From Centroberyx gerrardi (lineage: Eukaryota; Chordata; Actinopteri; Beryciformes; Berycidae), in assembly GCF_048128805.1 (NCBI RefSeq), contig NC_135998.1:27893492-27957491 (forward strand): a stretch of 64,000 bases of DNA, in the 5' to 3' direction. The first letter of the stretch is position 1. Every line of letters begins with the position of its first letter. Both the position numbers and the translations under genes were made by a program. Positions 421 through 46,687 of this stretch are shown here, in pieces. Under the pieces are notes generated by a model, which was not told where the DNA came from, made no database searches, and was given only the letters and a program-made list of their open reading frames with translations.

Positions 421-6167
<5,747 letters not shown>

Positions 6168-6395: not shown

Positions 6396-6420
6396 CATAG
6401 GCGGCGCTATTAAGAGGCTA

Positions 6421-6439
6421 GGGGAAGCTAAGCTTCCCC
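6421..6439. repeat. Subterminal palindrome of the outer element
   Basis: GGGGAAGCT and AGCTTCCCC pair perfectly around a single central base, 25 bases inside the left terminus. Such palindromes are common transposase-binding or structural sites near hAT ends; that role is inference. Confidence 0.7.
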
Positions 6440-7050
6440 AAAATTGTCATGAAAAAAAAAAACGGCAGTCCAGTAGCAGAAAATAGGAGAGCGAGCAAGC
6501 GAGAGAGACAGAGAGGCGAGCAGGACGGAAAGAGAGAGAGGATTGAAGCAGCACAAGTTGCCTAAACGGCCGACTGACACCTGAACGTAGCATCAGCAAA
6601 TGCATACACCGATGGGTTCTTGAACGTTCTAGTTATGCACATAATGAAATGTGTGCAATTTTATTTTTGCTTGTTGTATTTTAATAGCGGCATGCATGTA
6701 GACTATATGCGGTCACGCTCGCTTGCCATGTTCATTTAATGTTCATTTCGTTCGTTTTGTATTTTAAGCCTACTAGATGTTGAAGTGGAAAAGGTTATGA
6801 TAAAAAGAAAGCCATGCCTTCACTCAGCATGACCAGGTCAGCATTAACAGTTAAACTCAAGCGTTGGAAAATAAACAATGGATAACCGTAGCCAATCCTT
6901 AACACATTACTCTGTGATTATTTTCCATTCACTATTATAGCCTAATGTGTTGGTAAAATAAAAAAGGCTATAAAAAAAGTCTGTTTAAGAGGCTTTATCT
7001 CACAGTAAAAGCCCATTCACATCTAGAACAATAACTATAAAGATAACTAT

Positions 7051-8564
7051 GACTATAATAAGATTTAGTATAAGTAGTAAATGGAATATCTGTGTTCACA
7101 CTACAACTATAACTATAAAAACACACCGGCGCTATTTGACAAAGACCGTCGCCTCTAAAAATGTTGAAAAGAAAAGTGACATACTGGTCAGGGTCAGAAG
7201 AGCTTAGCGGTAAGACTGACCTGGAAGTTAGTTAAATCGCTAACTTTTGCTAGCTAACTAACAAAACAGCATCATGTCTTGGCCAACCTGACCGCAAATG
7301 CACCATTATCCTATGTTTTTAATATGACCGGGAGGTAACAACATGTGTCCCTCCAGTAGCCTGTTGAAACCGTTCAGCCACGGTGAAGTTACAGGTGTTT
7401 CTCTCAACATGGGCTACAGGAGACTTGACTTTGATCCACAGTAGATGTGGTGTTCAGAGTCACCTACTGGTAAAGAAATACATAGCTTCACTTGGTGGCC
7501 ATTAGCTCTCATATAGCCTAAACAAGCACAATAATGTCATGAAAGCGCCGTAAAAGAACATTATTATCTGCCAGCTCCTCTCTCTTTTGCGGCAATCCAT
7601 GAACCCAAATCTTTCGGCAATGTCGTTATTTAGAAAGTGCGTAAAATAAAAGCATGTCGGTAAAGTAATCATGCTCCATTTTTTCTCGGAATATTCGGCG
7701 CTGATATTGTTATAGTGTGAACGCTTGAGCAACAGCATATCCCCGGCTAACACGTGACGAACCAGCGACGTATCTAGTCTGACTTTTTGGTCATTTCACG
7801 ACCATCTGAAGACGTTGTCGTTATGTTTTGTGGTGGTAACATTATTACCTCCACTCCCCCGCCTCAGATTACCTGCATACGACTAAATGATATAACGTGC
7901 TCCGACGGTCAGTCGGTCATTAAATTACCAGCCGGCGAGGTATGTCAACTATCAAGTATGAGCAACCCCAATGAGGAAAAAGCTGCATTTTGTAGGCTTA
8001 TTGCAATAAGCCTGTGGACAATCTTAATTTCTGCAAACTGACCAACTACAATCTGAGAGAAAATAACAGTTATGTGTATATTATATATATATATACACAT
8101 ACATACTTGTAGTAATATAACTTAGAATATACGTATAGTCTACATATATGTATAAATATACTTAAATTCTATTAAAATATTTCTAGGTTTCTGTTGTGAC
8201 TATGTTCATTAGTATCGCTAGTTCTAATGCAATGTAAAATGAAACATGCTTGCATTCTCAAGTATCTAGTAAAATTTACAATATTAAAATGTTTAATTAC
8301 TTAAAATTACAAAAATACTATAAAAATATGAGAAATTCTAACCCTTTTCATTAGAAAAATAAGCTGCACAAATTCCAGTGGCTGTAATTTTGGAGAATCC
8401 AATGTAACATACTTGAAAACATCTGTGAACTGCTTTAAGAAGGTACTACTGACTCTTGTTCTAAAGGTGCACTGTTAAATAAAGTCATGTCTTTTCCCAA
8501 AAAAAAGATGACATGTTTCCTCCTTCAATCAAAATCAAGGTCATTTTTCTTTATTTTTTCAAAC
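7051..8564. other. Left interior of the inner element, no gene seen
   Basis: AT-rich sequence with a second ACTATAACTATAAAAAC motif near 7105-7125 and a (TA)n stretch near 8082-8100. The short open frames are not convincing: I found no domain motif or in-phase partner exon. Confidence 0.5.
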
Positions 8565-8936
8565 TGATGGAGGGGAGGGTGAAGCCTGGTGGTACTGACT
8601 GATAGAGAGAAGAGTGGAGCCTGGTGGTACTGGCTGATAGAGAGGAGAGCGAAGCCTGGTGTTACTGGTTGATGGAGAGGAGAGGAGAGGAAAGTGAAGC
8701 CTGGTGTTACTGGCTGATGGAGAGGAGAGAGAAGCCTGGTGGTATTGGCTGATAGAGAGGAGAGCGAAGCCTGGTGTTACTGGCTGATGGAGAGGAGAGA
8801 GAAGCCTGGTGGTATTGGCTGATAGAGAGGAGAGAGAAGCCTGGTGGTATTGGCTGACAGAGAGGAGAGTGAAGCCTGGTGGTATTGGCTGATGGAGAGG
8901 AGAGTGGAGCCTGGTGGTATTGGCTGATAGAGTGTA
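8565..8936. repeat. 35-bp minisatellite, array 1
   Basis: About 10-11 diverged copies of a purine-rich unit containing GAAGCCTGGTGGTATTGGCT and AGAGAGGAGAG. The same family and orientation recurs at 11131-12003. Copies differ by small indels and by GGTGGTATT versus GGTGTTACT variants. Confidence 0.95.
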
Positions 8937-9770
8937 CGTACTTTTATTACGTACTGAAATTTGCCCCCTCGTCTCTCCTTATAGCTCGAATCCATCACTT
9001 TTGTTGGAATAAATCTGAAGGAAAGCTATGAAATTACAAATATGGCTGTTTCTTCTTTGAATTAGTACAAAGGGGGACGCTACAAAACTGGCTGCTCTTT
9101 GTCTCCGCCATTGTACTGGTGACTGTTAAGATAACCGGAAAAGGGTTACTCCCAAATCTGGTTTGCATACCTGGAAATGTGAGATAGGCCTATAGGCTAC
9201 TACCTGTATAAATTAGGTAAAGACTAGAGTAGCCCTTTTTGTCTCTTAGGTAAATGTATCAGAATAGGCTACTACCTGTATAAATGTGCGTAAGACTAAG
9301 GTAGCCCATCCTGTCAATAAGAAAAATGTATCAGAATCGGCTACTAGCTGTATAAATGTGGTAAAGACTAGGGTAGCCCATCCAGTCGCTTAGGAAAATG
9401 GGTCAGAATAAACTACTACCTGTATAAGTGTGGGACAGCCTAGAGTAGCCAAACCTGTCAGGTCAGAGAATTTATCACAATAGGATACTACCTCTGTAAA
9501 TGTGGTAAAAACTAAGGTAGCCCATCCTGTCAGTTAGGAAAATGTATCAGAATAGACTACTAGCTGTGTAAATGTGGTAAAGACTTGGGTAGCCCATTCA
9601 GTCGCTTGGGAAAATGTGTCAGAATAAGCTACTACCTGTATAAATGTGGTACAGTCTAGAGTAACCCTTCCAGTCTCTTAAGAAAATGTATCACAATAGG
9701 CTACTGCCTGTATAAATGTGCTAAAGACTAGGATAGTCCATCTTGTCGGGTAGGAACATTTATCAGAATA

Positions 9771-10437
9771 CCGTAAAACTTCAATTAAAAGCCGAGTCCC
9801 AATTAGACGCCGGTCCCTTTTACTGGCCGGGTGTGGCTACACGTTTTGACAAATAAAGGCCGGTCTCAATTAGAAGCCGGTTGCCAGTTTTTTTTTTTTT
9901 ACTTGCATTCAAACGTCAGTCACATTTGCTGATCGCCATGGCGGCACAGAGAAAAAAGTACGACCTGAAATTCAAGCTGTCAGTTGTCAAATTTGCTGAA
10001 CAAAACTCAGAAGCAGCAGCAAGACATTTCTCCGTTGATCCCAAGAGAGTGAGAGAATGGCGAAAAAATAAAGTTGAACTTCAACGTCTGTCCGAGGAAG
10101 ACGGTAAAAGGGCTTTCTAAGGTAGGCTACCGGTATTTTGATACGGCTCTCGCTCTCGCTCTGTGCATGAGGTTGGCCTAGATGTGCTGTCTCTCGGAGC
10201 GAGATCAAATGAATGATTCGTAATTGATATGTTATTCGATAGCCTAATTTTTATACAAGTAATATTCATACTGGTTTACCAGTAAATAAACAATTTGATA
10301 GTATTTCCCATCTTTGCTGAGCAAGAGTTTTAGGAATTAAAGGCCTGTCCCATATAGACACCTATCCCAAATATAGGCCGGTTGAGTTCAGTGTTTGAAG
10401 CAAATAAAAGCCTGGGCTATTAATTGAAGTTTTACGG
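9771..10437 (+). mobile_element. 667-bp pogo/Tc1-like non-autonomous element
   Basis: The left terminus CCGTAAAACTTCAATTA (9771-9787) is a perfect 17-bp inverted match of 10421-10437. TA duplications lie at 9769-9770 and 10438-10439. Removing the element rejoins a unit of the 75-bp array exactly at GAA-TA-GGCTAC, which proves the insertion. Subterminal GGCCGGT motifs occur near both ends. It encodes a single short ORF (9938-10120). Confidence 0.93.
9938..10120 (+). CDS. 60-aa psq/Brinker-type helix-turn-helix protein from the pogo-like element
   Basis: The ATG at 9938 has a strong context (GCCATGG). The peptide has YDLKFKLSVVKFAEQ, then AAARHFSVDPKRVREWRK, a lysine-rich helix-turn-helix of the kind at the N-terminus of pogo-family transposases and POGK. 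Acidic QRLSEEDGK follows and the frame stops at 10120. No DDE catalytic domain follows within the element. It could bind the element's own ends and act as a repressor (inference), or be a passive remnant. Expression is unknown. Confidence 0.65.
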   Translation: MAAQRKKYDLKFKLSVVKFAEQNSEAAARHFSVDPKRVREWRKNKVELQRLSEEDGKRAF

Positions 10438-10479
10438 TAGGCTACTATCTGTATAAATGTCATTAAGATTAGAGTAGCG

Positions 10480-11126
10480 TGTAACAAAGTGGATATCTAA
10501 TAAGGCTTGGGTAGAGCATCTCAGTGATTAAGGACACATAGATGGCAGACATTAAGTGGATAAGGTAAAATACAATTTTATTTAAATAAAAAATACATAG
10601 GCTACCCCCGTACATAAAATCTGCACTAAAAGCATACAAGCACATAAAAACCAGGAGCCCCAATACAAGGGAAGATTGCGTGCACACAAAAGATAAGTCT
10701 GCTACAGAGCGAGCCGGGAGGCTTCATATAAGGAAGAACAGTTGATTTTGTTGCAGTTTACACACCAGGCGGTCAATAGGTCTACAATACCGCCAAAATA
10801 TGAGACCAATGCCACCAATTTGATTTTCCCCACTAGCATACGATACCGCACAGAAGTAGCCTCGCTCGCTCGCTCTGGAACAGCGTCCCTCTTTAAGTCC
10901 GGAGCCCCTTTTTAAAAAGACGCCGACTGGACTTCCCTTGATTGCTGAGCAGCCACAGATGCTCAGGTCTGCTGGGTAACGGGACCCACCGGAACATAGG
11001 AGGGAACAGAGAGACAGCCGATCAGGAATGCACTTATCAATAACAACTAATAACCATCCTTTCATAAAAATATAGAAACACTAAAACAAAAATGGCAAAA
11101 TGAAATACAATAACAGTGCCCCGCTA
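10480..11126. mobile_element. Possible solo LTR or unclassified insertion
   Basis: Begins TGTAAC and ends GCTACA, about 650 bp, with an AATAAA inside. It separates the end of the 75-bp array from the start of the second 35-bp array. No matching target duplication is visible, so this is a weak call. Confidence 0.3.
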
Positions 11127-11130
11127 CACG

Positions 11131-12003
11131 AGAGTGAAGCCTGGTGATACTGGCTGATGGAGAGGAGAGGAGAGTGGAGCCTGGTGTTACTGGCTGATGG
11201 AGAGGAGAGTGAAGCCTGGTCTAACTGGCTGATAGAGAGGAGAGTGGAGCCTGGTGGTATTGGCTGATAGAGAGGAAAGGAGAGTGGAGCTTGGTGTTAC
11301 TGGCTGATGGAGAGGAGAGTGAAGCCTGGTGGTATTGGCTGATGGAGGGTGAAGCCTGGTGTTACTGGCTGATGGAGAGGAGAGAGAAGCCTGGTGTTAC
11401 TGGCTGAAGGAGAGGAGTGTGGAGCCTGGTGTTACTGGCTGAAGGAGAGGAGTGTGGAGCCTGGTGTTACTGGCTGAAGGAGAGGAGAGTGAAGCCTGGT
11501 GTTACTGGCTGGTGGAGAGGAGAGTGAAGCCTGGTGTTACTGGCTGAAGGAGAGGAGAGTGAAGCCTGGTGGTATTGGCTGATAGAGAGGAGAGTGAAGC
11601 CTGGTGGTATTGGCTGATAGAGAGGAGAGTGAAGCCTGGTGGTATTGGCTGATGGAGAGGAGAGTGAAGCCTGGTGGTATTGGCTGACAGAGAGGAGAGT
11701 GAAGCCTGGTGGTATTGGCTGACAGAGAGGAGAGTAAAGCCTGGTGGTATTGGCTGATGGAGAGGAGAGTGAAGCCTGGTGGTATTGGCTGATAGAGAGG
11801 AGAGTGAAGCCTGGTGGTATTGGCTGATGGAGAGGAGAGTGAAGCCTGGTGGTATTGGCTGATAGAGAGGAGAGTGAAGCCTGGTGGTATTGGCTGATGG
11901 AGAGGAGAGTGAAGCCTGGTGGTATTGGCTGATAGAGAGGAGAGTGAAGCCTGGTGGTATTGGCTGATGGAGAGGAGAGTGAAGCCTGGTGGTATTGGCT
12001 GCT
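11131..12003. repeat. 35-bp minisatellite, array 2
   Basis: About 25 copies of the same unit as 8565-8936. From about 11555 on they are very regular, alternating GATAGAGAGG and GATGGAGAGG forms. Because 35 is not divisible by 3, minus-strand frames rotate through all phases every 105 bp and stay open in more than one frame, giving a spurious 35-residue peptide repeat rich in Ser, Pro and Gln. Confidence 0.96.
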
Positions 12004-12235
12004 TTTCTCCATGAAGCACTTTGTAACTTCTTGTTTCCAAAAGTTATATGAAGTAAAACTTACTTACTGACTTACCTACTTACTTACAATTTACAGTTAA
12101 TACAGTAGCCTATATAGTATATAACAGGTCAGAAATCGAATTATATCAATACTTACCAAAAGTAATCAATTGTATCAACAAACAATTACACTCCAGCTAC
12201 CATATAATTCTAAAAACCTATGTATGTCTAAAATC

Positions 12236-12802
12236 TAAAAGGAGGCTGCAGCTGCTGCTCTGAGCTAATAGGACAGCTGACAGTGCTGGCATGGAACAGC
12301 ACACTCAGTAGATCAGAGAGCGAATTGTATCAACAAATAGGCCTATAGGCTAAAGGGACAGCTGCCTTCTGACTTGGAACAGCCCGCTCAACATATCAGA
12401 AACCGAATTGTATCAACAATTATAGGCTAAAGGGACGGCTGACTGCTGGCTTGAGATGGCCTGCTCAGCAGGTCAGAAACCAAATTATATCAACAAACAA
12501 TCATACCGAGATCTGAGGACAGTGTATCACGCCGGCTACCAAATCTCTAAAACCTATTTATGTCTAAAACTATACTATTTACAGTACCTGCAATCAGAGT
12601 CTCAGGTATCTCTTGGGAGGAGAGGGGCTGCTGCTGCTGTCATCGCTGCTAGCCTTCCTCTTCCTCTGACTCTGACGCATCGGCACGTCTCTGGGCCTGG
12701 GGAAGGTACAGAAGGGACAGCTAAAGGGACGGCTGACTCTGCTGGCTTGAGACAGCCCACTCAGCAGATCAGAAACCAAATTGTATCAACAAACAATCAA
12801 AC
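12236..12802. repeat. ~105-bp diverged tandem repeat overlapping the 3' end of the unknown gene
   Basis: Repeated blocks carry AAAGGGACGGCTGACT, then GCTGGCTTGAGA, then CAGATCAGAAACCAAATT, then TATCAACAAACAATCA. Copies are recognisable near 12270, 12350, 12430 and 12720. The last copy coincides with intron 4 of the minus-strand gene and is bounded by two copies of CTGGGGAAGGTACAGAA (12697 and 12803). Confidence 0.8.
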
Positions 12803-15800
12803 CTGGGGAAGGTACAGAAAACGGACAGCATCATGTGGCCCTCTGGACTGTAGTCAGTCAGCCTCCACCGACCCTCCAGCTCCCCTCTCACAGGGCAGCA
12901 GACTGGGGAGATGACCCTGATGAAACGGCTGCCCGCCACCTTGGAAATAAGACCACATTAGAAATAAGAGTTTTGTGTAACACTTTCATGTGCCATCCTC
13001 TGGTTTCAATGTAAGTCTTTTAACATGTTTGATTATTTTTTTGCCCATAATAAATGCAAGCAATCACCTCCATAGGGCAGACGTGGTTCCTGGGGTCTGC
13101 CTTCAGGGCTGCTGGCTCGACCTTGTCAGGGTGGCTTGGAGTCACAAGGGAGTGAGCTGAAGACCTGGAGGCTGCTGTGGACACGATCACAGCTGCCGGT
13201 GCTTCCATCACGGGACCTAGGGATGGGACAGTATATTGAAATTCAATATATTGCAATACAAAAATGTGACAATACGTATTCTGGGGCAGAAAAATTAATC
13301 GCAATATCAGCTATATCTTATTCTGCTGTAGTAATCACAAATGAGACAGCTTGCCCATCACAATTTCATAAGCTCTCTATCAAAATTATTAGACTATTTA
13401 TTATTATTTGCACCTTGTAATGACATTTTTTAATTCTTGTTTAGGTTCTAGCAAGCCAATGCCATTGCTAGAAAGATTTGTGGTTCAGAAATAAACATAA
13501 TTCTGCAGAGTCATACTTTGTTGTCATTGAACTTTTATCCTATTACATCTTTTTGTGGTTGCAGTGTTTCCCCTAGCATAGAAATTAGTGGGTGGACCCA
13601 GTAATGTCGGGCCCAGTAATGTCGATCACCAGCCCACTAATCCCTGTCAGCAATTACACCAAAGTTTGCCGGCTCTGCAGTGTTTGGCCCTTCAGGCAAA
13701 TCACAGAGTAAGTACGCCCCAAACCCAAATCTGTGGTGAAGCCTGACATCTACTACCCTATCCCTCCATCTACCCTACTTTTCACCATTAGATGTCAGGC
13801 TACACCACAGATTTGGGTTTGGGGTTTAGTTACTCTTTAAAAACGGAAAAGTCCACCCAACCGGGAAGCCAGGTCACTTTAAACAAACACACAATCAAAT
13901 GACAGGCACAAACAGTTCAATCTGAGCCGCGGAGCTGACAGGTTGTGTTGTGAAAACACTATAGTAATTTAACTTTCAAAGATGAATTACTATAGTGTAA
14001 AGTTTGCTACCTAGCATGGCAAGGAGAGTGAAGGAATATGTAGCCATCTGTTGTTTGATTGACTGTAACGTTAGCTAAATAGGTGGCAGTGGTGTATCTG
14101 AATATGGTGGTGAATATGGTGTTAATCTGAATATAGTCATTTAAAAAGTCTCCTATAGACAGCCATCAGTCTCTTAACTTCTGAATGCACCAGCATTTTA
14201 GAATCATTTTATAGACAGAATGAAATCTACTGTTTTGTGAAGCTTATTCGGGAATGGCAACAATATGGAGAGTGTTGACTTGTATCGTGTAATAAGCATG
14301 TCCCATCCCTACCTAGTGGTGTGTTCTCCATGTGGTCCTGGGATGGATAGACGAAGGGGGAAGTCAGCACTTCCGCTTCAAAGGCCCCCTCATGGTAAAT
14401 CCAAGAATAGTCACTGGACTGTCCGGTGAGGCGGCGGAAGAGGGTGGGGACCACCTGACCGATGGCAAGGATGTTGTCCCTAGTCAGAGGACGGTTCCTC
14501 AGGTTGGTCACATGCATCAGTACCCCGATGATTGTTAGCAGCCCAGCTAAATGGAAAACACAATGAGACATGAATTACTTTTATTTATCTGACTACATGC
14601 CTTTCTTAAAAACATGAAATAAAAAGTAAAAATAGGAAATTTCATTAGTGATTCAGGAAAAATTAAAGATGTGAAAATATCATATCTAAGCTCAAATATT
14701 CAGCACTGTTGAAAAAGAAATCCATGCTCAAGCAACAAAAAGGAGCGATACAACCTTAAATCCAAAATAGCATGCTGAGAGAGAAAGGTGTAACACTCTT
14801 GTAGAAGAAAAATGGAAATCTATTTATTTAGCTATAAAAACATGAAGTTTTGGTCACTTGACCCTGTGCCTTTCTCTCTCAGCAAGCCCAAATATTCAGT
14901 AAGAATTAATTGTTGGATCACTGTCAAACACATGAATAAGTATATATACATTAAGTAAGATGTTGGGCTATTTCAGAAATGGTAGAAAATTTTGTTTGCC
15001 AGTGGGACTGAATCGGCAAAGGCTTCCAGAGAAAGCTTAAACAGCTCTATAGTTGAGAGACCTGTATATATCTACATGCACCTAAATCCACATCACTCTT
15101 TGTGACAATAAGCAAATTCTGTCTGGGAAAGGTCTTAATTTTATTTCAGCCACACATTATAATGCTTTTGAAACATATATTGACTTTGAAATATTTTTGT
15201 AGACAAAGAATTCTTTGGGTCTAATGATGAGATACCCGTTGAGATGCGCTATACAAATAAAAATTATTATTACTATGTTCTTTTTAACATGCCCACTGTT
15301 AAGATAATTTCTTCCTGGGATTTGCCTGGACATGCTTTACTAATAAACTGCACTCCAATGTCAATATCTAAGAATTATAGAGGAGTGTCAATTAGAAAAT
15401 CTTGTGTGATATCAAATTTCCCTTTGTAAAACACTTGAACTAAGATCAAGCCTCTAACGTTATATTAATTGTAAAGAGGCACAATTACATAATCTAACAC
15501 CAAAATCCACCCATTTGCTGCTGTTCATAACAATAAAATAAATGACTCCCAGCGGGAACTGTGTGTTTTTACATATCAATTTACTTACTATGTCCTTTGA
15601 GACATGCTTGTGATAAAGGGCTATATAAATAAACAAACTTGATTAACCTAGCATCCAACCAAGCCAGCATCCAATTCACAGCCAACACTAATTGAAAACT
15701 GCACATTTTCAGTTTTAAGAAATCGTTTTTAGCTAACATTACGGTAGCTAAACAGTAGCAAGTAGCAGGCTAACATCAAACCTAAGCTAACGTTAGCTTG

Positions 15801-16455
15801 CAGTGGTAATTGAATTTTTTTTTTTTTTTTAAATTGATCAACCCTTTGGCTGGTAAAATGTCGAGGGTCACAACGGTAAAATACAAAAAACAGTAATTGT
15901 TTTTCTAAGGCTCATATTTTAACGAATCGTGTTTGTTTTCATCCAATTTATATAAGCTAGCTAACCATAGGTGAGCTAAAGTTAGCTTGGCTAACTTTGA
16001 CTCGCCTTATTTTGCCTTACCATGTTTTGTCATGTTTTTATTTTTTAACCAAACCCACATTTTGACATTTGGTCAGGGTTATAAGATAATGATGCGTTAT
16101 GGCTTCGTGGCGCATGGGGTTCATTGGAGACACCGGTGCCGGGCGCACAGCCACCCTCTACAGCCGCACCCACTGTCTGATACCCCGAGTCAGTAAATGA
16201 GAATAAAGAACTTGTCTAGTCTGTTATGCTTTTTTCATTCAAATCAAATGAATGTGAAATGTTGAATTCATGGCTAGGTTCACTCTTTCCAAAAACAAAA
16301 GGCACATTTAGGAAACCTGGGCCAGTCGCAGCAGTCTCATCTTCCTCTAACGCCATGTCGGTGTCTCCCTCTTTTTCTAACACTACGTAGGGTTTCCCCG
16401 TTATGGAGGTGAGAGCTCCGGTGTCCTGTCGCGCCGCCAGTGGCACAGGTATCAT
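12594..16455 (-). CDS. Unrecognised five-exon gene inside the nested transposon
   Basis: I do not recognise this protein. Minus-strand exons: 16455-16317 (tentative first exon, ATG at 16455), 14546-14313, 13216-13068, 12939-12803 and 12696-12594 (TGA). Every boundary is GT/AG and the phases sum to an exact 253 codons. Exon 2 has a hydrophobic start (LLTIIGVLMHVTNL) and RDNILAIGQVVPTLFRRLTG, then SDYSWIYHEGAFEAEV. Exon 3 is Ala/Ser/Pro-rich. Exon 4 has GSRFIRVISPVCCP and GRWRLTDYSPEGHMM. The C-terminus is basic and serine-rich (KRKASSDDSSSSPSPPKR), probably a nuclear localisation signal. Open, phase-consistent exons argue against random sequence. It may be a transposon accessory gene or a captured host gene. 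Exon 1 and its 1.8-kb intron are the least certain; the intron is AT-rich and has LINE- or SINE-like 3' tails near 15245 and 15620. Confidence 0.5.
13706..13835. repeat. Foldback element with 47-bp arms
   Basis: The arms 13706-13752 and 13789-13835 are reverse complements. The inner 36 bases (13717-13752 with 13789-13824) have one mismatch, and the outer GAGTAA/TTACTC also pairs. The loop is about 36 bases. It lies in intron 2 of the minus-strand gene, so the transcript could fold into a long stem. Confidence 0.85.
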
Positions 16456-17271
16456 ATATGTTTTGATAAAAATAACTCGTTTCCTGTCCCGTCACTTTAA
16501 ATGTAATCAAAACTACAGTCATGGTTGTGCGCTACCACATAATGTTGTTCGTCGCAGCCATATGCATATCTTTATTACAATTACAAAATGGCATGCTCCA
16601 GGCTCTACTATTGGGAAACCTAGGAAGAAGATGACGCATGCAGTTGTTGCCTATTTGGCAAGAGCCTGATGCTGGTTGTGCAACATCAAGGTACACTGGT
16701 TGAGGTGTGCGTAATTGCGCAGCGCTTTGAAAATGCGCACCACATCGTTCACATTAGAGGCTGCAGGTGGAACGCACATAACTGCCAAGCCGGCTTTGGA
16801 TGGATATAGCGATTTCATCAGCTGAAATATATCCTACACAGTTGGATGACATATTGGTAAGAATAACCCCCTGAACTTCCCCAGTACAGACCACAATTAC
16901 CTTTTACCTTCATCCATCAATGAACCTATCCATTGATAGATGACATGGATTGATGGAGTGCAGTGTGTTATAGTTATCTTTATAGTTGTCGCACTAGGTG
17001 TGAATGGGCCTTAACAGCCGCAATTTAGGCGCACGCTCATAAACTTTTCTGTCATCCTACTGTGATGCTCTTATTAAACAATAACAAAACAAACATCTCT
17101 GACTGGTAAAGGCAAATTGACATTGACATTGATTTTATATTTCATGGCAAGATGTGGCCTTTCTTATTCCATAGTGCCACTCGAGCTGTTTAGGTGGTTT
17201 GCCTAATTTTGTCCTATGAAAATCCTGGGAATTTTATCTTCCCCATGCGTGATGCCCTAGCGCCGCCTATG

Positions 17272-31852: not shown

Positions 31853-32633
<781 letters not shown>

Positions 32634-35422: not shown

Positions 35423-46687
<11,265 letters not shown>

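Follow-up and report, generated by a model that had tools for sequence, protein, structure and literature searches.

A DNA transposon of the fish Centroberyx gerrardi with a probably captured host gene and three introns that appear to be made of repeats

Pack-TIR elements (TIR, terminal inverted repeat) of metazoans have a median captured length of 224 bp, and multicopy cases are few (13% in frogs) (Tan et al. 2021, PMC8277862). Introners are families of introns found in many genes; a target duplication accompanies only some of the families, and for vertebrates the parts of the survey used here describe no pattern of gain (Gozashti et al. 2022, PMC9860276). In vertebrates, intron gains that are both recent and traceable to a source are reported to be rare (PMC2746811, PMC3151243). 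The locus described here is a gene on the minus strand of a 64,000-nt stretch of NC_135998.1 of Centroberyx gerrardi (the window), where it lies inside a DNA transposon of 10,876 bp; a genome sequence of 779 Mb was searched for its relatives. It is likely that the transposon captured a host gene as DNA and spread, and that an exon of the gene was then split by three introns made of repeats. This reading is carried by the paired element ends and their target duplications, by the copies of the gene in the genome, by an intact relative elsewhere, by the non-coding sequence that this relative shares with the copies, and by the conserved reading frame.

An earlier annotation made from the window alone (the sequence-only reading) had modelled a gene of five exons and 253 codons. 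The four downstream exons, here called A to D, are indeed found where that model placed them (14546-14313, 13216-13068, 12939-12803 and 12696-12594), whereas its fifth and most upstream exon (16455-16317) gives the gene a wrong 5' end. The features of the gene in the window are as follows.

14313 to 14546, minus strand: coding exon A, second among the coding exons of the complete gene; bounded by acceptor ATTTAG and donor GTAGGG; frame intact in most copies.
13217 to 14312, minus strand: intron 2; its ends are those of a miniature inverted-repeat transposable element (MITE) of hAT type, TAGGGATGGGAC...GTCCCATCCCTA (13218 to 14311), with further sequence in the middle.
13068 to 13216, minus strand: coding exon B; splice sites and frame checked.
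12940 to 13067, minus strand: intron 3; 128 bp, of which approximately positions 2-117 consist of a dispersed repeat that ends in (TTGA)n.
12803 to 12939, minus strand: coding exon C; the lowest ratio of nonsynonymous to synonymous substitution (dN/dS) between young and old consensus, 0.18.
12697 to 12802, minus strand: intron 4; one 77-bp satellite unit, with 18-bp direct repeats at 12819-12802 and 12713-12696.
12594 to 12696, minus strand: coding exon D; a basic, serine-rich tail ending in ...RKRKASSDDSSSSPSPPKRYLRL, then the stop TGA.
16074 to 16075, minus strand: deletion junction; the roughly 600 bp lost here held the TATA box, the first coding exon and the start of intron 1.
16317 to 16455, minus strand: exon 1 of the sequence-only reading, rejected; stops in 7/7 other aligned copies.

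According to the minus-strand translation and a check of the splice sites, exons A to D have GT..AG limits and compatible phases, and when joined they give about 207 codons that end in RKRKASSDDSSSSPSPPKRYLRL and a stop. Without splicing, the frame of each of exons A, B and C is closed by a stop codon in the intron that follows, and GT-AG removal of introns 2, 3 and 4 in each case restores the frame. The three are thus presumably spliced as introns.

The transposon that carries the gene has these parts.

6396 to 17271, no strand: the whole element, 10,876 bp; TIR CATAGGCGGCGCTA at both ends; flanks GTTAGGTC and ATTAGGTC, identical at 7/8 positions.
6396 to 6409, plus strand: left TIR, CATAGGCGGCGCTA; the exact motif occurs 16 times in the genome.
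17258 to 17271, minus strand: right TIR, an inverted match of the left TIR.
7005 to 7053, plus strand: left arm of a subterminal inverted repeat, 84% over 49 bp with its partner at 16967-17015.
16967 to 17015, minus strand: right arm of the same repeat, partner at 7005-7053.
12264 to 12497, no strand: 77-bp satellite array, repeat family D12; likely source of intron 4.
11130 to 12001, no strand: 35-bp tandem repeat array.
8564 to 8932, no strand: second 35-bp tandem repeat array.

The gene had been assigned to an inner element. That it lies inside a mobile element is borne out, and the surroundings are best seen as a single element (6396 to 17271) with other repeats nested in it and with tandem arrays whose units are 35, 72 and 77 bp long. 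The 16 exact occurrences of the TIR in the genome compare with 0 for a backwards control. Eight-base target duplications are exact in L014, L015, L016 and L018 (ACCATACA, CCTCCAGT, AGTACCAT and AGTACAGT), and 7/8 bases are alike both in the window copy and in the copy on C4 at 31.0 Mb, the latter compared by eye. The duplications differ between the copies examined, as in multicopy Pack-TIR elements, and this indicates separate insertions. Two TIRs together with a target duplication were found for the window copy, L014, L015, L016 and L018, and not for the older copies. The short TIR of the CATA type and the 8-bp duplications, both of which mark the P superfamily, suggest that the carrier may belong there, which is to be taken as a lead only.

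No transposase that could be assigned to the carrier was seen in the sequence of the window element or, by eye, among the six longest open reading frames of each of the partial elements L046, L047, L048, L066, L067 and L068, of which L048 still contains the end of the gene. An element with no visible transposase would need one supplied in trans in order to move. L069, the copy on C4 at 31.0 Mb, has extra DNA with RVT_2 and integrase-type (Copia-like) matches and a DDE_Tnp_4 (Harbinger-type) fragment (Pfam, five open reading frames); these pieces are taken as nested insertions. A further nested element, about 670 bp long and bounded by inverted repeats of 28 bp, lies at 9769-10439 of the window, inside the 72-bp array. 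An open frame in it, at about 9938-10120, contains a DNA-binding domain of the Brinker type (PF09607, E 1.4e-8), and a piece that is 95% identical to it is present in L019 at 281-932.

When exon A was used as a DNA query, 19 places were found in the genome, including the window. A protein query gave 81 exon-level matches, which by their positions represent about 25 transposon-type places, including two weak ones, plus the C19 and C4 loci described below. Eight kb was fetched around each of the 18 other exon-A places; L026 is the C19 gene, and the other 17 are transposon-type copies. The window copy and L009-L018 make up the young copies (n=11), which form a single clade with 100% support in a tree rooted on C19 and built without L021, L024 and L025. 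In a codon alignment to the window with indels masked, 17/18 of the other places are free of stops, L025 being the one that has them. Frame-breaking indels are present in L012, L014 and L017, the normal stop is lost in L013, and whole exons are missing from L021, L024 and L025. The splice dinucleotides are intact at nearly all of the sites that are present; the donor of exon A is lost in L024. The older copies L019, L020, L022 and L023 contain the gene together with matches to the satellite arrays of the element.

The gene most likely begins with a coding exon of the form M-(A)-x-QREKYLL..QDHA|G, the donor of which, AG|GTA, fits exon A in phase. This exon is open from the start codon to the donor in 12/17 of the other transposon copies (L009, L010, L011, L013, L015, L016 and L018 to L023) and in the C19 gene, and was not found in L012, L014, L017, L024 and L025. 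A TATAAAA box is situated about 80 bases upstream of the core of the exon in 11 of the 12 copies in which the exon is open. Ten of these were recovered by an exact search for TATAAAAG, and L013, which reads TATAAAAAG, was added; L021 lacks the box. About 600 bp that are present in most young copies, and that contain the first coding exon, are missing from the window at 16074/16075. The window copy is therefore defective. Having lost the TATA box and the first exon, it is probably dead, and the protein modelled from it could not be made.

The best protein match in the genome, at C19:5246187-5246783, is 57% identical over 199 residues and is intact in a single open exon. The second relative, at C4:11449205-11449726, is 34% identical and has an open frame of 253 aa. 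A likely first exon is found upstream of each open frame, which gives both genes a two-exon form, and the two relatives are 32% identical to each other (pairwise, in the alignment). In the C4 relative (L035, sense 2580-3400) there is an apparent one-base shift just before the basic, serine-rich tail, so that the frame ends early; this seems to be a sequencing error or a recent loss of the tail. Over 8 kb, the C19 locus shows no TIR with up to 3 mismatches, and by blastn it matches the element only in the gene and its 3' flank. The C4 gene has no paired element ends, one unpaired 3-mismatch site being present in 6 kb, and its matches are confined to coding sequence. With no paired ends around them, both are candidate host parents outside the transposon, and a host gene of this kind would have been the donor.

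At the nucleotide level, the homology between the C19 gene and the copies comprises about 60 bp 5' of the ATG, parts of intron 1, the coding exon and 45-70 bp past the stop. The shared parts of intron 1 and the shared flanks imply that DNA was involved, and capture probably took place by DNA. The direction from host to transposon is favored. Capture of a host gene is thus preferred to the other origin that had been proposed, a new transposon-encoded protein, given the intact, undivided relative on C19 and the more distant one on C4, neither of them with paired element ends.

The region of exons A to D corresponds to one undivided exon in both the C19 and the C4 relatives. Introns 2, 3 and 4 are all absent from the C19 gene, and by eye the spliced transposon sequence has the same length as C19 at the junctions A/B and B/C. 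At its two ends intron 2 reads G|TAGGGATGGGACGATAT and ATATTGTCCCATCCCTA|G, which is a 17-bp inverted repeat, perfect in L020. The best of 200 shuffles equalled the score of the copies with one mismatch and did not equal that of L020. Among 40 scored matches to the 3' part of the intron (2501 first-look candidates), 26 lie outside the copies of the gene. Six independent copies of the MITE were fetched; both ends are present in five, 351 to 386 bp apart, and the 8-bp duplication is exact in two, alike at 7/8 positions in two and not seen in one. These copies match approximately the last 300 bp of intron 2. The MITE has TIRs of the form TAGGG...CCCTA and 8-bp duplications, as in the hAT superfamily. 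The intron is 1096 bp long in the window versus 319 bp in L020, so that most copies contain further sequence inside it. As in introners, the ends of intron 2 are the TIRs of a dispersed element, and the intron is missing at the same place from the presumably ancestral form of the gene, that of C19.

For intron 3, 19 of the 40 scored matches lie outside the copies of the gene, and the matched repeats end in (TTGA)n. Since introns 2 and 3 consist largely of recognizable repeats, they look like gains and not like ancestral introns. Intron 4 is composed of one unit of the element's own 77-bp satellite and two copies of TTCTGTACCTTCCCCAGG, 106 bp apart. It is present in 11/11 of the young copies and absent from L019, L020, L022, L023, L024, L025 and C19; for L021 there are no data. 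As it is confined to the fully supported young clade, intron 4 most simply arose once, in the ancestor of the young copies.

As far as it was searched, the protein has no meaningful match in Pfam, NCBIfam or PDB, the C4 relative having been searched in Pfam only, and this agrees with the sequence-only reading, which knew no family for it. The findings point to a small protein family outside the libraries searched, with two host members. The C-terminal tail is basic, proline- and serine-rich and resembles a nuclear localization signal, and the protein is probably nuclear. Three candidate relationships were discarded: 1) PF19207 DUF5879 (E 0.024) is below the cut-off and disappears with the better-joined proteins of other copies; 2) the PDB matches, with best E of 9.3 and 2.1, are due to chance; 3) eight IMG/VR loci, which would suggest a viral relative, match just 26-27 residues around DYTPEGDM and are likewise treated as chance.

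By combining this information, it is possible to describe how the present locus might have come about. An element with TIR CATAGGCGGCGCTA and 8-bp duplications would have taken up a complete two-exon host gene with a short 5' flank, intron 1 and some of the 3' untranslated region, and the gene, once captured, would have reached about 25 places. Its long second exon would later have been split by three insertions, namely a hAT-type MITE, a short dispersed repeat and, confined to the younger clade, one unit of the element's own satellite with an 18-bp direct repeat. Intact copies would use their own TATA promoter for transcription, and their spliced transcripts would give a small, probably nuclear protein of about 230 residues.

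A stronger form of this reading can be put forward only tentatively. According to it, a whole host gene competent for expression was mobilized, and all of its introns but the inherited one arose after capture through three kinds of insertion, namely a MITE, a repeat with a retroposon-like tail, and a satellite unit with a target duplication. If this is true, the gene would represent a natural series of intron birth under selection for protein function, with the states before and after the last intron in one genome.

Selection on the copies was assessed by dN/dS (Nei-Gojobori, codon bootstrap; intervals in brackets), with L021, L024 and L025 excluded because of their missing exons and the broken L012, L014 and L017 kept. 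The older copies, in which introns 2 and 3 are already present, have a dN/dS of 0.39 (0.24-0.60) among themselves. The ratio is 0.65 (0.46-0.92) for young against old copies and 0.57 (0.43-0.79) for the transposon copies against C19; between the consensus sequences it ranges by exon from 0.18 in C to 1.69 in D, where sites are few. These values suggest that the older transposon lineage was under constraint, and that constraint in the younger one is weak or uncertain. Among ten young copies (L017 left out), the introns differ by 0.04 to 0.07 and the exons by 0.04 to 0.06, a similarity that fits mostly neutral decay after insertion. In the same copies, the exons have fewer distinct gaps (6 over about 660 columns, of which 4 have lengths divisible by three) than three stretches of intron do (19 over 689 columns).

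Several observations weigh against capture followed by the gain of functional introns. In the 8 kb fetched around each of L019 to L023 no TIR with up to 2 mismatches was found, and the 1.2 kb at the right-hand end of the element is unmatched in L019, L020, L022 and L023 and represented by a 28-bp scrap in L021, so that these older copies may not belong to exactly the same element. The aligned C19 sequence does not contain the TATA box of the copies. No 8-bp duplication, the other mark looked for in an introner, is visible around the MITE of intron 2 in the gene. The three donors (GTAGGG, GTGATT and GTTTGA) look weak. The dN/dS among the young copies is 0.70 (0.48-1.03) and that between the young and the old consensus is 0.85, so that constraint in the younger lineage may be weak or lost; the older group consists of four copies, of which L022 and L023 are nearly identical. 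Finally, the genes on C19 and C4 could have been domesticated from a transposon; the direction cannot be read from one genome.

One alternative, which we consider unlikely though deserving of serious attention, is that the insertions broke the captured gene, that nothing is spliced, and that the open frames are leftovers of the young age of the copies. It would account for the interval of the young dN/dS reaching 1.03, the similar distances of exons and introns, the frameshifts in L012, L014 and L017, the stop codon lost in L013 and the weak donors. It does not explain why GT..AG excision is exact and restores the frame, why older copies that already have introns 2 and 3 show a dN/dS of 0.39, or why the first exon with its start codon persists in 12 of the 17 other transposon copies, 11 of them with the TATA box. 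A dN/dS near 1 together with stops in other copies had been named beforehand as grounds for rejecting the gene. The four exons do not fall under it, with ratios of 0.39 to 0.70, although the ratio is 0.85 between the young and the old consensus; the exon at 16317-16455, in contrast, does have stops in other copies.

That the gene is original to the transposon family, and that C19 and C4 are old copies which the host retained minus the transposon ends, is distinctly less plausible. Most places with the gene are neither the C19 nor the C4 locus, the protein has no relative in the three libraries, and the single genome leaves its direction of transfer unreadable, all of which would agree with domestication. 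On the other side stand the two host-type genes, which at 32% mutual identity are both of the simple two-exon form, the composition of introns 2 and 3, which look gained, and the lack around C19 and C4 of paired element ends or of matches beyond the gene and its 3' flank.

The model of a 253-codon gene that starts at 16455 is highly improbable. Its first exon is open and in phase in the window copy alone. In an alignment that did not include L012, L014 and L017, the frame has stops in all seven of the other copies that contain the stretch; L019, L020, L022, L023, L025 and L026 have no match to it, and L021 and L024 contain scraps of the region only. This exon lies further upstream than the conserved first exon, which with its start codon sits in the stretch deleted from the window, so the start proposed by the sequence-only reading is wrong. 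Entry into the element by way of reverse-transcribed RNA, which the undivided second exon of the C19 gene would allow, can be taken as ruled out by the parts of intron 1 and the flank upstream of the ATG that C19 and the copies have in common.

The capture of a host gene as DNA, followed by intron gain, thus remains the likely explanation. It suggests that a fish DNA transposon can carry an apparent entire gene, more than a fragment. One mobile gene offers up to three intron gains, and for intron 4 the intron-less and intron-bearing copies exist side by side, so that the splicing of a newborn intron is directly testable on copies with and without it.

Three further features of the window lie outside the element. 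The open frame at 32130-32633 contains a homeodomain (PF00046, E 2.6e-22) and probably represents a homeobox gene of the host. An open frame at 46043-46687 has a weak carboxypeptidase regulatory-like match below the cut-off and a threonine-rich tail, and may correspond to the 3' end of a host gene resembling carboxypeptidases. A long nested inverted repeat at 42076-42721, the arms of which are 94-97% complementary, is probably a foldback or MITE-type repeat. Rfam gave no match at the gathering level in the window.

Within the literature searched, as far as its available text extends, no precedent was found for a whole captured gene with several introns acquired after capture, nor a matching report of captured host genes in teleost DNA transposons, which is no proof of absence. 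A report of intron gain in humans (PMC12124190), in its accessible part, leaves the present reading unchanged. The carrier resembles the zebrafish P-type element Pdre2 (PMC10983969) in its short TIR starting with CATA, its subterminal inverted repeats and its 8-bp duplications; the TIR sequence differs, being given as CATACCTGTCAAC in the portion of that report used here, and unlike Pdre2 the present carrier has no transposase that could be found. As in Pack-TIR elements, in the account drawn on above (PMC8277862), host sequence appears between the TIRs of a DNA transposon, sometimes at several places with distinct target duplications, whereas here an apparently whole gene occupies about 25 places and has largely retained its frame.

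The introns compare with three described systems, each as represented by the parts of the reports available. Intron 2 is like an introner (PMC9860276) in that a non-autonomous TIR transposon has apparently become an intron, with splice sites that come from the ends of the element or from the insertion site; unlike introners, one MITE and one other repeat have here apparently given one intron each in a mobile gene. The introns of slc26a2 in notothenioids (PMC12357937) are likewise teleost introns that consist of dispersed sequence resembling transposons, the ends of the repeats containing GT-AG. That gene is a resident of the host, whereas the present one is carried by a transposon, with up to three gains and with copies that do and do not have intron 4 in one genome. 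Intron 4 is comparable to the intron gained by tandem duplication in the potato RdRp gene (PMC4974935), where a duplicated stretch provides both splice sites, and differs from it in that the insert is a satellite unit with 18-bp direct repeats and not a plain tandem duplication.

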